Shown one piece after another: positions 8,923-60,981 of a stretch of 64,000 nucleotides of DNA. Each line of letters opens with the position of its first letter. Position 1 is the first letter of the stretch. The stretch is from positions 62,001 through 126,000 of the forward strand of contig NZ_JAMHFY010000007.1 of NCBI RefSeq assembly GCF_023897015.1, written 5' to 3'. Source of the stretch: Desulfosporosinus nitroreducens (GTDB lineage Bacteria > Bacillota > Desulfitobacteriia > Desulfitobacteriales > Desulfitobacteriaceae). The notes under the pieces are model-generated. The model did no database searches and was not told the DNA's origin. It saw only the letters and a list, made by a program, of their open reading frames with translations. Made by a program: the position numbers and the translations under genes.

Positions 8923-10956
8923 TTAAACCTGAAACTTGCTAACGGCTTCCTGAAGATTCTGGGCTAGCGTAGCAAGGCTCTGGCTGGAAGAGGCTATTTC
9001 CTGCATGGACGCCGATTGCTCCTCAGTAGCAGCCGATACCGTCTGGGCTTCACCAGTAACCTTTTTACTTAAGTCATCAATCTGGTTCACAGATCCTACT
9101 ATCTGTTGGCTGCCAATAGCCATCTCATCAATGGTCAAAGCTATTTCTTTCACCTGTTCAGATACGTGGGTCACCAATTCTGTGATTTCCTGAAAAGCTT
9201 GTCCGGCAGCATTAACTACTTCTGCTCCCAAGGTAACTTCCTGAGTGCCATTACCCATGGCCAGGACAGCTTGATCGGTGTCTCCCTGAATTTCGCCGAT
9301 CAGTGAGGCTATCTGCTTGGTTGCTTCCTGTGACTGTTCGGCAAGTTTACGCACTTCTTCAGCCACTACTGCAAAACCTCGTCCTTGTTCACCAGCCCGT
9401 GCAGCTTCAATAGCGGCGTTAAGGGCCAACAGATTCGTCTGTTCTGCAATACCAGAAATTGTAATAACAATCTGCCCAATTTCCTTTGAGCGTTCGCCCA
9501 ATTCAGCGACCGCCTTGGCCGAATTGTTTACAGTTTGTTCAATCTTTGCCATTTGTGAAACAGCTTTATTTACCGAGCTGTTCCCTTCGTTGGCCTTATT
9601 GGCAGCCTGGACCGATTGTCCAGCCACCTCCGTCGTTGTCGCTGAAACCTGTTGAATACTGGCTGACATCTGCTCAACAACGGCTGAAGCTTCATCAACA
9701 GCCCTCAACTGCTCTTCTGCACCTGTCGCCACTTCGGTAATTGACGTTGCTACCTGGTTCACGGCCAGAGCCGATTGTTCGACGCTAGCCGTTAATTCTT
9801 CACTGGCAGCAGCTAACTGCTCGGCTTGATAGCTGACCATAGTGACCATTTCATGCAAATGCATCCTCATCTTTTGGAAACCATTCGCCAGTTGACCGAT
9901 TTCGTCTTCCGCAAAATCCCCTGTCTCACGCTCTCTAAAATCTCCTTGGGCCAAGAGCAGACACTCATCTCGTATCAACAAAACAGGTTTTGTGAACCTT
10001 TTGGCAATAAATACTATTGCAAGTCCAGTAATCAATAAACAAACCACGGCAATTATCAGCATCATTCGGGTTAAGCTAGTGGTTTCCCTGGTAGCCTCGA
10101 CTTCAGGCGCCGCCACCGACATGATCCAGCGTTGTCCGCCCGGCAAGTCGATTGGAGTGAAAACCGCTATCCTTGGCACATTATCAACAAAGGTATATGC
10201 TCCGCTTAGCTGTTTCCCTGACTCTGCTGCCGACTTAAACAGGTTAATCAGATGGTCGTCAAGCTCAGCCTTTGGCAACTTAAGTTCAGGATTAATAGTC
10301 TTCTCCAAAAGATTCAGTTTGCCGATCGCTTCAGGAAGTTTTGGATGAGCTATGATCATGCCTGAATCATCCGCAATTTGACCATAGCCACTATCTAGAA
10401 ATTTCAGATCTTTAATGAGTGCGGACACTCTTTCCACCGAAAATGTTCCAACCAACACCCCAGTGAACTGATCATTATTCTTGACAGGAACCGCTAAGAC
10501 AACTGCTAACTTCCCAGTTGACTTGGAAACTAGGGGGTCTGAAACAACTGCTTGCTTGGTGTCTATAACTTTCTTAAAATAGTCGCGGTCACCGTAGGAG
10601 GAAGTCGCTCCAGTGCTGGTGAGCCCTGATCCATCAGGTGCCACGAAAACAACGGCATCAAAAGTACCAAATCGTTCTTTGGCCTCTGCCATAGCCTGAA
10701 CCATCCGCACTTTGTCGGAACCCGTACGAATTTCCTCTAGATTACCCAGGTCTTGAAGCCGAGACAGCATAAGCTCCATATCGGCTTGAACGCGATTGCT
10801 GTAATCAGTTCCCACCGCGATGGCTGTTTGATCGACACTCTTGGTCAGGGACTGTTTGGAAAGGTAGTAGCTAACCCCAGTTAGCACACTTAATACCACG
10901 ATAACAAGGGGCAACAAGAGCAGCAGCAATTTGGTTTGAATACTTTTAACGTTCAC
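8923..10956 (-). CDS. Methyl-accepting chemotaxis protein
   Basis: A 677-residue transmembrane chemoreceptor. Order: membrane helix about residues 9-30, an extracellular double-Cache-like sensor (about 35-290, with the [12 protein letters not shown] and [10 protein letters not shown] motifs), a second helix ([20 protein letters not shown]), a HAMP linker ([20 protein letters not shown]) and a long coiled-coil signalling domain. The conserved hairpin tip reads [20 protein letters not shown]. It should couple to CheA/CheW, which are not in this window. The start is GTG with AAAGGAG eight bases upstream. The long leader holds a c-di-GMP-I riboswitch and terminator, so receptor expression is probably tuned by c-di-GMP. 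Confidence 0.95.
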
Positions 10957-11013
10957 TTCTTCGACTCCTTTAGCTCAATTCCTACAAAATACGACTTTTA
11001 TGTATATAATTAA

Positions 11014-11042
11014 AAGCTGTAGCGTTTAAAGCGCCACAGCTT
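11014..11042 (-). terminator. Terminator of the c-di-GMP riboswitch expression platform
   Basis: AAGCTGTAGCG (11014-11024) and CGCCACAGCTT (11032-11042) form an 11-pair stem with one mismatch. On the minus strand the hairpin is followed by TTTTAATT. It lies between the riboswitch aptamer and the mcp start codon and should decide whether mcp is transcribed. Confidence 0.75.
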
Positions 11043-11063
11043 AAAAATCACCAATAAAACGGT

Positions 11064-11150
11064 GTTCTACCTTTGGCAACCTGACTGTCATAGTACTTAT
11101 ACCTTAGACTCATGGCTTTGTGTCCTTACTTTTCAGTAAGTTTACTTTTC
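11064..11150 (-). ncRNA. Cyclic di-GMP-I (GEMM-I) riboswitch upstream of mcp
   Basis: The minus strand matches the GEMM-I aptamer. CTTACTGAAAAGTAAG forms the P1b stem with a GNRA-type loop, followed by the conserved GGACACAAAGCC block, then GTCTAAGGTAT and the closing ATGACAGTCAGGTTGCC, which holds the tetraloop-receptor side. A CACC/GGTG pairing and a terminator (11014-11042) follow, then mcp. Known GEMM-I switches bind c-di-GMP and control motility, chemotaxis and surface genes. The next gene upstream on the same strand is a diguanylate cyclase. The rest of the gap, 11151-11285, shows nothing I recognise beyond AT-rich promoter-like sequence. Confidence 0.85.
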
Positions 11151-11285
11151 ACTTTATTAAATTATGATGATGAGTCCTTCGTAACATCAGATTTTATATT
11201 CGTCATTATATACATTAATTATCTGAAATACAACATACATTTAATATCAAGTTATTAAAAGTTATACCAGAACTTTTTAAACCAA

Positions 11286-11326
11286 AATTCCATTACCGCC
11301 CCCTCTCACGATCGTGTAATGGAATT
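11286..11326 (-). terminator. Putative terminator after the diguanylate cyclase gene
   Basis: AATTCCATTAC (11286-11296) pairs with GTAATGGAATT (11316-11326); the loop carries its own CACGATCGTG palindrome. On the minus strand it is followed by TTGGTTT, a modest T-run, 43 bases past the stop codon. Confidence 0.5.
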
Positions 11327-11368
11327 AGAAACCTCCGCAACAGTCAGTGTATTGAATGTGGTTCTTAC

Positions 11369-12571
11369 TCATATTGAGGAACTTAAATGAAGGTTATGCT
11401 CGGAAACAACAGCATTCCTGCCGCCCTCTTTTGCTTTGTACAAGGCTCTGTCAACTCGATCCATAATTAAACCCTCATCATCCTGAGTACAGAATGATGT
11501 AACGCCAAAGCTGCAGGTTAGAGCCATTCCCTTCTTCATTGACTCTTTACAGATTGATTTTCGTAACCTTTCCGCGAGGGCAGAAGCCTCTTGACAATAC
11601 GTCTGAGGTAAAAGAATTACAAACTCCTCACCACCCCAACGAGCAAACACATCCACTCCCCTAACTAAGCCTTTCACAAGATTGGCTATCTCTATAAGAA
11701 CTATATCTCCAAAAATATGGCCATTTTTATCATTAAACTGCTTGAAATGGTCTATGTCAAACATAATAAGAGAAAAGGAATTTCCGTACCTCCTAGCTCC
11801 CTCAATCTCACTGCTCAACGCCTCGTTGAATTTCAGGCGGTTATATATATTAGTTAATGAGTCTTTCGTAGAAAGATCTTTAAAGTATTGTTTGTTAACA
11901 AAATCAAGCCTCATGTACTTGCCCAGACTGTACGAGGATATGCTGCTAAAAAAGATTGCTAATGACAGATACCCAAATACCGAACTAAATTCTAGCAAAG
12001 GTGGATGATATTTAGTCAGAGTAATAACCATATAACCAATCAATGCGAAAAGTGAAAGAAATACTTTATAGTGCAGTAAGTTTGGCACTAGAAAGAAAAT
12101 CCCTAAAACAATCACATTAATCGAAAAAGCCTGGATTAGAAAATGATAGTCCTCATATTTCATAACAATAATAAAAAACAGTACAATAAAGATGAGTTGA
12201 TAAATAGTGATCTTTAAAAAAGGAGATGACTTCAGGAAATAATCTGGCTTAAAATAAAACATCACTGATAACCCAAGGAACGTCAAACGACATAGAAAAA
12301 AAATAGCCAGAACCATGAATTGGCTGTTTGATGAAAAATCATAAACTAGATACAAGGAAAAAATGCTTCCTACTATAAGAGCGACTTTTCGCATATAGTT
12401 TTTAGACCTTGTTAAGTATGAATCCTGAAATTGCTGTTCTAAATGCTTGTCTAAGAACATTCCGGTCAATTTAGAAGTAACATGGTTTTGAGAATCCGCC
12501 AAAAAATCACTTCTTTCTAAAAGTACCACATTAGTAACCCTACCGCCCTTTACATTTCCACTATTAAACAT
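11369..12571 (-). CDS. Membrane diguanylate cyclase (GGDEF domain)
   Basis: A 400-residue protein with about six predicted membrane helices (roughly residues 60-215) and a C-terminal GGDEF domain. It should make c-di-GMP from two GTP. The active-site loop reads RWGGEEFVILLP, and RGVD five residues before it fits the product-inhibition I-site. LIMFDIDHFKQFNDKNGH is the metal/GTP-binding block. No extracellular sensor domain is visible, so the membrane part may be the sensor. The start is uncertain: ATG 12571 has a poor ribosome binding site and codons 12-16 offer alternatives. It lies upstream of the c-di-GMP-switched mcp gene. Confidence 0.92.
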   Translation of the reverse strand: MFNSGNVKGGRVTNVVLLERSDFLADSQNHVTSKLTGMFLDKHLEQQFQDSYLTRSKNYMRKVALIVGSIFSLYLVYDFSSNSQFMVLAIFFLCRLTFLGLSVMFYFKPDYFLKSSPFLKITIYQLIFIVLFFIIVMKYEDYHFLIQAFSINVIVLGIFFLVPNLLHYKVFLSLFALIGYMVITLTKYHPPLLEFSSVFGYLSLAIFFSSISSYSLGKYMRLDFVNKQYFKDLSTKDSLTNIYNRLKFNEALSSEIEGARRYGNSFSLIMFDIDHFKQFNDKNGHIFGDIVLIEIANLVKGLVRGVDVFARWGGEEFVILLPQTYCQEASALAERLRKSICKESMKKGMALTCSFGVTSFCTQDDEGLIMDRVDRALYKAKEGGRNAVVSEHNLHLSSSI

Positions 12572-15134: not shown

Positions 15135-16337
15135 TTAACAACAATCTACTCCCAAAGCAGTCCAGGTCTGAATACCGACGATTCCATCCGTAACTAGACC
15201 CATACACTCTTGGAAAGCAAGGACAGCCGCTCTAGTAATAGGTCCAAAGATCCCATCAACATTGCCCGTATAGAATCCTCTTGTTTTCAAGAGTCCTTGC
15301 AGTTTTACTACTGCTGGTCCAGTGCTCCCTTGTTCAAGAGTAGGACATTGATTTCCCGGTGGCGGGGTTGGTGTATGACAATCTACGCCCAGCGCTGTCC
15401 AAGTTTTTATTCCAACAATTCCATCTTGCGCCAGGCCCATGCTCCCTTGAAATGCTACGACTGCAGCCCGCGTGACAGGACCAAAAATTCCATCGACATT
15501 GCCTGTGTAGAAGCCTCTTGCTTTCAAGAGTCCTTGCAGTTTTACTACTGCTGGTCCAGTGCTCCCTTGTTGGAGAGTTGGACAGTGATTTCCCGGTGGT
15601 GGGGTTGGCGTATGACAATCTACGCCCAGTGCAGTCCAGGTTTTTATCCCGACAATTCCATCTTGCGCCAGGCCCATGCTCCCTTGAAATGCTACGACTG
15701 CAGCCCGCGTGACAGGACCAAAAATTCCATCGACATTGCCTGTGTAGAAGCCTCTTGCTTTCAAGAGTCCTTGCAGTTTTACTACTGCTGGCCCAGCGCT
15801 CCCTTGTTGGAGAGTTGGACAGTGATTTCCCGGTGGTGGGGTTGGTGTATGACAATCTACGCCCAGTGCAGTCCAGGTTTTTATCCCGACGATTCCGTCT
15901 TGCGCCAATCCCATGCTTCCTTGAAATCCTACAACAGCTGCCCGCGTGACAGGACCAAAAATTCCATCGACATTGCCTGTATAGAAGCCTCTTGTTTTCA
16001 AGAGTCCTTGCAGTTTTACTACTGCTGGTCCAGTGCTCCCTTGTCGGAGAGTTGGACAGTGATTTCCTGGTGGCGGGGTTGGTGTATGACAATCTACGCC
16101 CAAAGCAGTCCAGGTTTTTATCCCGACAATTCCATCTTGCGCTAATCCCTTGCTCTTTTGAAAAGCAAGGACTGCCCCTCTAGTCAATGACCCAAAAATC
16201 CCATCAATTTTTCCAGGGTTGAAACCGGCTGCTGCTAACTTAGTTTGCAACTTTTTCACGTTAGCACCAGATGAGCCCATTTTTAATAAAGGACATTGCG
16301 GTTGTCCATTGGAATTACCTATGTTTTTGTTATGCAA
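15135..16337 (-). CDS. Protein of five tandem peptidoglycan-binding domains
   Basis: A 400-residue protein made almost wholly of five PG_binding_1 domains of about 70 residues, each following the pattern GxxVxxLQxxLxxxGF...IDGIFGxxTxxAVxxFQ and ending DGIVGIKTWTALGVDC. They are joined by identical proline-rich linkers (HTPTPPPGN). No catalytic domain and no obvious signal peptide are present, so it is probably a wall- or spore-associated binding protein; export is unexplained. The start is TTG after a run of eight G on the minus strand acting as ribosome binding site. Three of the 237-base units are nearly identical in DNA. It is divergent from the GH18 gene, which carries the same domain. 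Confidence 0.88.
   Translation of the reverse strand: MHNKNIGNSNGQPQCPLLKMGSSGANVKKLQTKLAAAGFNPGKIDGIFGSLTRGAVLAFQKSKGLAQDGIVGIKTWTALGVDCHTPTPPPGNHCPTLRQGSTGPAVVKLQGLLKTRGFYTGNVDGIFGPVTRAAVVGFQGSMGLAQDGIVGIKTWTALGVDCHTPTPPPGNHCPTLQQGSAGPAVVKLQGLLKARGFYTGNVDGIFGPVTRAAVVAFQGSMGLAQDGIVGIKTWTALGVDCHTPTPPPGNHCPTLQQGSTGPAVVKLQGLLKARGFYTGNVDGIFGPVTRAAVVAFQGSMGLAQDGIVGIKTWTALGVDCHTPTPPPGNQCPTLEQGSTGPAVVKLQGLLKTRGFYTGNVDGIFGPITRAAVLAFQECMGLVTDGIVGIQTWTALGVDCC
15373..16083 (-). repeat. Three near-identical 237-base tandem repeats inside the PG-binding gene
   Basis: The marker GTATGACAATCTACGCC occurs at 15373, 15610, 15847 and 16084, exactly 237 bases apart. The three complete units between them differ at few positions, while the outer units are more diverged. 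This points to recent duplication or gene conversion and makes copy-number change likely. Confidence 0.9.
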
Positions 16338-39910: not shown

Positions 39911-40240
39911 AAACCCTTCGTCTCTGATTGAGACGAAGGGTTAGTTCGCGGTACCACTCAAGTTGACAGCAAATAGCCGTCTTCTCTAAAGATACGGGAG
40001 TTAATCGTGGTTCGTAGTTCGTGGTTCGACCCTAAAAATAACTTTATGGTTCGAACTTCGAAAACCGAACTTCAAACATCGAAGTTCCGATATCTCCTTC
40101 CTTTTAACGGCGGAAGCTCCGTCCGAGCCTACTTTAAACAATTTCGGTCGGCTACTCGAGGAAGAGTTCCAAGCCCATACCATTACTGTCTTTCACCACC
40201 TGACAGCTCTCTATAAACGGTAAAAAGGACTGTACTATTT
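39911..40240 (-). ncRNA. T-box riboswitch of leuA, probable leucine specifier CUC
   Basis: The 435-base gap before leuA is a T-box leader on the minus strand. From 5': AGTACAGTCC near 40235, the stem I AGAGAGCTGTCAGG and GGTGAAAGACAG blocks, specifier context GGAACTCTTCC (CTC at 40164-40166), AGTAGGCTCGGACGGAGC, the T-box core AGTGGTACCGCG (39947-39958) and the terminator AACCCTTCGTCTC/GAGACGAAGGGTT (39911-39942) with a T-rich tail. Uncharged tRNA-Leu should favour the antiterminator. An insertion of GTTCG-rich repeats at about 40003-40095 separates stem I from the antiterminator. Confidence 0.9.
40003..40095. repeat. GTTCG-rich repeat inserted in the T-box leader
   Basis: The plus strand shows CGTGGTTCGTAGTTCGTGGTTCG-type short repeats (units GTGGTTC/GTAGTTC at 40007-40028) followed by GGTTCGAACTTCGAAAACCG and a further ACTTC...GAAGT dyad. 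This is not part of the conserved T-box and resembles simple-repeat expansion or a small inserted repeat. Confidence 0.5.
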
Positions 40241-40317
40241 CCTCTCATCGTCATTTTAACAGTTTTTATTATTCTACACTACTATTTTTTATTGTCAAGG
40301 GGTTTCTACAATTAGTT

Positions 40318-60702: not shown

Positions 60703-60747
60703 GAATTAACAAAAATTCCTGCCACTCATCCATCGTGAGTTAAAGCA

Positions 60748-60900
60748 TACGAGCAGTCAGGTCTCCTGGCTTAGGATCATCGTTTATTGCCTCCTTCCCA
60801 AGTTTCCTCAGTGGATCCGGCAAAAACTCCCCATTTACAGTGGCGGGACCGCGCCGGATTCACACCGGCTTCCCTGTTTAATTTTTCTATAAAGAAAAAT
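60748..60900 (-). ncRNA. Cobalamin (adenosylcobalamin-type) riboswitch
   Basis: The minus strand carries the B12 aptamer in order: GGGAAGCCGGTGTGAATCCG, GCGGTCCCGCCACTGTAA (B12 box) and the closing GATCCTAAGCCAGGAGACCT. It lies upstream of cbiM. In known cases B12 binding shuts off cobalt import and cobalamin genes, here cbiMNQO-cbiJ. A terminator follows at 60680-60702. Confidence 0.93.
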
Positions 60901-60981
60901 TACTTGCTCGAAATATTTACTTTTTATAAATTTAACACGAATACTCTTCACCGTCAAGTAAGAATTTTTTCAACTTTATAA

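Follow-up and report, generated by a model that had tools for sequence, protein, structure and literature searches.

Downstream of a putative diguanylate cyclase gene in Desulfosporosinus nitroreducens, and on the same strand, lies a chemoreceptor gene (mcp) whose leader resembles a riboswitch for cyclic di-GMP (c-di-GMP). The locus raises the question of whether synthesis, sensing and response are joined here in one local circuit, and, more basically, what the leader senses and in which direction it acts. We addressed this in a 64,000 nt stretch of the genome (the window; C77:62001-126000 of source genome G000, an assembly of 5.46 Mb in 95 contigs), with a genus comparison of 29 Desulfosporosinus genomes and an orthologue comparison of 40 relatives. 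Taken as a whole, the explanation that we favour, with reasonable though far from complete confidence, is that the mcp leader is an OFF-type, transcription-terminating class-I switch with c-di-GMP as its likeliest ligand and with an unusual pocket base that shifts its affinity or selectivity, whereas the cyclase is probably transcribed separately, as one source among many for the ligand pool. A survey of titles and abstract openings in the open-licence literature returned nothing on this locus, which is no proof of its absence from print.

A cmscan search of the whole window yielded three Rfam matches, one of which was RF01051 (GEMM-I, c-di-GMP-I) at 11156-11072 on the minus strand. The match scored 82.9 bits (gathering score 35; E 7.8e-15) and was full length, covering model positions 1-87 of 87. 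The original prediction had placed a GEMM-I aptamer with a GGACACAAAGCC core at 11064-11150; the core is present, and the covariance search recovered the aptamer a few bases away. These results support the assignment of the mcp leader as a class-I cyclic-dinucleotide riboswitch, which is real, well conserved and of an already-known kind.

The binding pocket departs from the usual form at one base. Model position 11 of RF01051, which we take to be Vc2 position 20, is usually a G (G20); the window aptamer has an A there (A20; window position 11146). The register at this point is fixed because the neighbouring 13:36 pair is U-A. In the RF01051 alignment the aptamer retains A47 and C92 (window 11075), if our assumed numbering of these two bases holds. 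The RF01051 model does not demand G at the position and covers A20 members as well. A at position 20 is also the mark of the GEMM-Ib group, and the window aptamer bears it. In the Clostridioides difficile class-I riboswitch Cd1, the equivalent base is G11 (PMC9262584).

The aptamer is followed by an intrinsic terminator at 11042-11014 (minus strand), an 11-pair stem with a T-rich tail (-16.8 kcal/mol, z -5.27), to which none of 200 shuffled sequences was equal. The hairpin is kept in the orthologous mcp leaders. A consensus scan found three terminator-like sites against a shuffled mean of 3.0, showing no excess, so the assignment rests on the fold, the T-run and conservation. Downstream is the chemoreceptor itself (8923-10956, minus strand; GTG start, 677 amino acids), in which Pfam identifies dCache_1, HAMP and MCPsignal domains. 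The terminator and the receptor behind it had both been anticipated, and both are borne out.

How the aptamer might communicate with the terminator was examined by folding seven leaders, with pairing probabilities computed on transcripts or prefixes ending at the terminator 5' arm. The predicted antiterminator (11077-11033, minus strand) pairs the aptamer 3' end, GCCAAAG (11077-11071), with the terminator 5' arm, CUGUGGC (11039-11033), and encloses a small hairpin at 11064-11049. Pairing of C91/C92 with the arm had a probability of 0.99 in the source genome, 0.83 in G019, 1.00 in G007, 0.99 in G006 and 0.90 in G012, and of 0.98 and 1.00 in two other A20 leaders, from Desulfosporosinus sp. PR (G041) and D. 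hippei DSM 8344 (L059 of G011), respectively. An antiterminator that sequesters C92 was thus predicted in 7/7 folded leaders, and the helix that it encloses in the linker differs in sequence between species. The CACA core of the aptamer had also been considered as the partner of the terminator arm; this pairing was dropped, as the ensemble folds favour the GCC at the aptamer 3' end.

The folds are consistent with a mechanism in which, without ligand, the last nucleotides of the aptamer (GCC, including C92) would pair with the terminator 5' arm; with the arm sequestered, RNA polymerase would read through into the chemoreceptor gene. Once ligand is bound, C92 would be held in the pocket, the arm would be free, the terminator could form and receptor synthesis would drop. 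We therefore predict an OFF switch like Cd1, whose antiterminator base-pairs with the C that binds the ligand (PMC9262584). The two share the aptamer architecture, A47, C92 and, as far as the folds predict, a terminator platform of this design, and differ in that the window aptamer has A for G at position 20 and precedes a dCache chemoreceptor gene; the direction of control is a prediction from folding. The class-I switches of C. difficile are described as OFF switches, although one gene behind them rose via its promoter (PMC6200980). On this model, c-di-GMP should lower the chemoreceptor by premature termination.

Several observations weigh against this direction of control. Shuffled arms matched the observed pairing in 43, 110, 7, 20, 17 and 8 of 300 trials (G000, G019, G007, G006, G041 and L059, respectively), which makes single leaders weak evidence, and the antiterminator folded alone gave a z of just -0.41. 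In five full-length leaders, the terminator fold was more stable than the antiterminated fold by 2.8 (G006) to 9.0 kcal/mol (-42.0 versus -33.0 in the source genome), so that any switching would have to be kinetic. The leader of L067, which also carries A20, resembles ON logic by eye, and the seven leaders folded for pairing are only part of the A20 set of the genus. The stability of the terminator in all five full-length leaders computed and the example of L067 would suit an ON switch, or a constitutive attenuator whose aptamer has lost control of the terminator. We consider either very unlikely: in the mcp leaders the aptamer and the terminator arms occupy separate stretches of sequence, the competing fold that we predict joins the arm to GCC/C92, and the strong conservation of the aptamer speaks against a relic.

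Whether the OFF switch that we prefer responds to c-di-GMP is made less certain by A20. The leader had been called a c-di-GMP riboswitch; its membership of the class-I cyclic-dinucleotide switches stands, while c-di-GMP as the ligand is likely but not secured, because A20 is also found in the GEMM-Ib pocket that senses cyclic GMP-AMP (cGAMP). In Geobacter, A20 is characteristic of cGAMP sensors, and a class-I aptamer with the G20A change is reported to bind cGAMP (PMC6274999, PMC7288161). For Cd1, the G-to-A change at the equivalent position is described as not greatly altering binding (PMC9262584), and a simulation study has G20 or C92 mutants binding c-di-GMP more weakly and notes that G20 is less conserved than A47 (PMC9049102).

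Alternatively, the aptamer may be of the GEMM-Ib type and sense 3',3'-cGAMP, alone or along with c-di-GMP; the chemoreceptor would be part of a cGAMP regulon, and the synthase behind that regulon would have escaped recognition. Known synthases offer a handle on this idea. The cGAMP-making Hypr GGDEF enzymes have Ser where canonical enzymes have Asp, with natural Ser/Thr enzymes carrying GGDE(F/Y) (PMC6456294), and a second Geobacter cGAMP synthase combines Ser with GGDDF (PMC8835794). We read this base-recognition residue by alignment over Pfam GGDEF matches, some of which are pieces of one gene. The 19 matches of the source genome comprise 14 with Asp, two with Asn and three unreadable or degenerate; Asp was found in 20/22 matches of G007 and 26/29 of G011, the remainder being degenerate or partial. 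No Ser or Thr was read in any of these three genomes. The same procedure applied to 20 GGDEF matches of a positive control, the Geobacteraceae genome of Geomobilimonas luticola (G045), which has an A20 match of its own (L184), recovered Ser with GGDEY and Thr with GGDEF, as well as Ser with GGDDF in a partial match. In Pelosinus fermentans JBW45 (G046) Asp was present in 18/20, and the sole Ser lay in a degenerate match below the cut-off. The SMODS domain had no match in G000, G019 or G006; it was matched in 6/29 genus genomes, including the A20 carriers G007, G012, G014 and G021. A20 thus occurs in the source genome without either tested known kind of cGAMP synthase.

Two GGDEF proteins of the source genome count against c-di-GMP as the ligand, as they have Asn at the selectivity position: L017 (G000:C55:178356-178805) and L011 (G000:C44:68883-69362), one with GGDEF and the other with GGEEF. 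Together with the A20 pocket, its constancy in the orthologous mcp leaders and recurrence in the genus (see below), and the SMODS matches in four A20 carriers, they are what would favour cGAMP. The Asn type was not seen in G007 or G011, and no Ser or Thr was read in G000, G007, G011 or the intact GGDEF domains of G046, all of which carry A20 aptamers. The likeness to the 3',3'-cGAMP riboswitches of Geobacter lies in A20: their partner enzymes, the Ser/Thr GGDEF proteins, were not found in the three Desulfosporosinus genomes, and Geobacter GEMM-Ib genes are reported to fall on deletion of the synthase gene gacA (PMC6456294), whereas the platform here is predicted to be OFF. We regard a cGAMP sensor as unlikely, although some response of the window riboswitch to cGAMP is possible, and take c-di-GMP to be the likeliest ligand in the source cell.

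The frequency of A20 bears on the same question. A strict pattern found 18 A20 aptamers in 11/29 genus genomes (none in a reversed control) and 98 G20 aptamers in 25/29, giving A20 a share of 18/116; these are undercounts, since the pattern missed the G012 orthologue, which has A20 and a changed core. Of eight RF01051 matches in the source genome, the window aptamer and L008 have A at position 20 and six have G. Beyond the genus, a scan of species genomes with the A20 pattern returned at least 119 stretches. The matches listed come from Bacillota, deltaproteobacterial lineages, Chloroflexi and other groups; in 113/119 of them the pattern match was also covered by a covariance model made from 24 aptamers of the genus. 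A20 is therefore common natural variation, and its wide spread argues against reading it as a sign of cGAMP sensing. We found no published frequency of A20 in the literature.

The base is also conserved at this locus. A DNA search of the 29 genus genomes with mcp and its leader recovered five orthologous riboswitch-mcp loci, in G000, G019, G012, G007 and G006, and A20 is present in 5/5; the aptamers are nearly invariant, while the upstream sequence and the linker vary. G018 yielded only a fragment, and the remaining matches were shorter, covering the mcp coding part or the aptamer alone (G041).

Other GEMM-I arrangements came to light in this survey. In G021 (L072/L075, G021:C213:367-668) three near-identical aptamers stand in tandem about 135 bases apart, position 20 being A, G and A in turn. 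L007 and L008 of the source genome (G000:C2:133672-136082) are two aptamers 2.3 kb apart whose cores carry an additional U; position 20 is G in one and A in the other, and each aptamer precedes a similar ion-antiporter-like gene, as judged by eye. At L003 (G000:C66:79597) and L004 (C23:39244) cmscan favours c-di-GMP-I-GGC (RF03167) over RF01051, and both aptamers have A where the RF03167 model has G. L006 (G000:C1:120283-120366), a G20 aptamer, precedes an HD-GYP-like protein (motif read by eye), an arrangement in which feedback on a phosphodiesterase is possible.

We next consider the neighbouring GGDEF gene (11369-12571, minus strand; 400 amino acids), whose GGDEF domain matched Pfam at 138.4 bits and in which no other Pfam domain was matched. 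The protein has Asp at the Hypr position, GGEEF, GHIFGD and an RGVD I-site (RxxD); GG(D/E)EF, Asp and RxxD are together the sequence signature of a diguanylate cyclase with product inhibition, and the gene probably makes c-di-GMP. The original prediction held the pairing with an intact I-site to be the point of interest. The same-strand cyclase and its I-site are as described; as a distinguishing feature the I-site was set aside, given that RxxD occurs in 12/19 GGDEF matches of the source genome.

The stop codon of the cyclase lies about 210 bases from the aptamer. Within this interval, an inverted repeat with a hairpin at the end of the cyclase gene (11325-11287, minus strand) is a possible terminator; the fold of 11330-11288 gave -13 kcal/mol (z -2.58, 4/200 shuffles as good), and the consensus scan did not list it. 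Closer to the aptamer is a promoter-like site read from the sequence (11233-11205, minus strand; TTGTAT, 17 nt, TATAAT), which is identical in G019 and not kept in G006 or G007. The scan did not list this site either, because its first hexamer matches at only 3/6 positions. The hairpin and the TATAAT site suggest that cyclase and mcp are on separate transcripts, and the cyclase is probably its own transcription unit, contributing to c-di-GMP alongside many others.

Comparison across relatives shows how far the pairing extends. Among the 40 relatives, cyclase orthologues were found in G018 (96%), G019 (95%), G001 (70%, with internal stops), G006 (63%) and G011 (55%, broken), and no close orthologue was found in G007 or G012. 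Cyclase, riboswitch and mcp occur together in G000 and G019 only. The G018 alignment passes directly from the cyclase end into mcp; the riboswitch and the receptor start are deleted, and the cyclase keeps an open frame. G006 has its cyclase orthologue and its riboswitch-mcp pair on different contigs. Flanks of at most about 1.5 kb on each side were examined at riboswitch loci, and upstream of the riboswitch in G006, G007 and G012 they hold genes other than the cyclase. Across 56 genus riboswitch loci (18 A20 and 30 of the 98 G20 strict-pattern matches plus the eight RF01051 matches of G000, with some places doubled), a flanking GGDEF gene was present only at the window locus, which is counted twice, and in G019. 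A conserved cyclase-riboswitch-mcp unit was rejected on these comparisons, and the proposed local circuit finds no support in that form. The GGDEF gene seems to be a neighbour within a single small lineage and not a conserved partner.

The circuit as originally proposed would have the neighbouring cyclase determine how much c-di-GMP the riboswitch senses, and hence the receptor level. The shared strand, the short distance and the order kept in G019 would fit it, as would an uncultured Pelosinus locus (L206, 506-3660) in which an A20 aptamer, a GGDEF gene and an MCP gene follow one another on one strand. Chance would give an estimated 0.03 or so upstream GGDEF neighbours (eight riboswitches and 19 GGDEF matches, with about 5000 genes assumed); the pairing is unusual, yet it was picked after the fact. 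The order is lost in G018, G012, G006 and G007, flanking GGDEF genes are missing from all other loci of the genus set, and the 19 GGDEF matches share a cell in which c-di-GMP diffuses, so that a single neighbour need not set the ligand level. We judge such local control to be quite improbable.

Linkage of A20 aptamers to cyclases and chemoreceptors does recur more widely. A downstream gene could be assigned for 98 of the 119 A20 stretches (here, too, among the matches listed), and it encoded a GGDEF protein in 8, an MCP in 6 and another product in 84. At L108 and L201 the aptamer comes shortly after the end of a GGDEF gene on the same strand; in G028 a GGDEF gene follows an A20 aptamer. Among these matches the enzyme lies more often behind the riboswitch than before it. 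The Pelosinus locus has aptamer, GGDEF and chemoreceptor genes side by side as here; there the riboswitch precedes both genes, whereas in the window the cyclase gene comes before the riboswitch and is not subject to it.

Elsewhere in the window, an open frame at 15135-16337 (minus strand) contains five near-identical peptidoglycan-binding-like repeats, which keep long frames open on both strands. Two further leaders are ordinary (gene names by eye): a T-box before a 2-isopropylmalate-synthase-like gene (39926-40257, minus strand) and a cobalamin riboswitch before cobalt-transport-like genes (60739-60922, minus strand).

Standard c-di-GMP-I annotation conceals a base change in the pocket that in Geobacter is linked to another second messenger. 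It is tempting to speculate that the A20 aptamers of Bacillota are a functional group of their own, responsive to cGAMP alone or in mixture with c-di-GMP even in the absence of a Hypr synthase. We think this distinctly doubtful; if true, it would imply an unrecognized source of cGAMP, such as the Asn-type proteins L011 and L017, and control of chemoreceptor supply by two messengers, and the A20/G20/A20 triple aptamer of G021 would be a mixed-ligand gate. Since A20 is common and conserved in Desulfosporosinus where a Hypr synthase was not found, the genus offers a clean setting for asking whether the ligand can be told from A20 alone, and the ligand of the Bacillota A20 aptamers is more worth following than the gene pairing that first drew attention to this locus.

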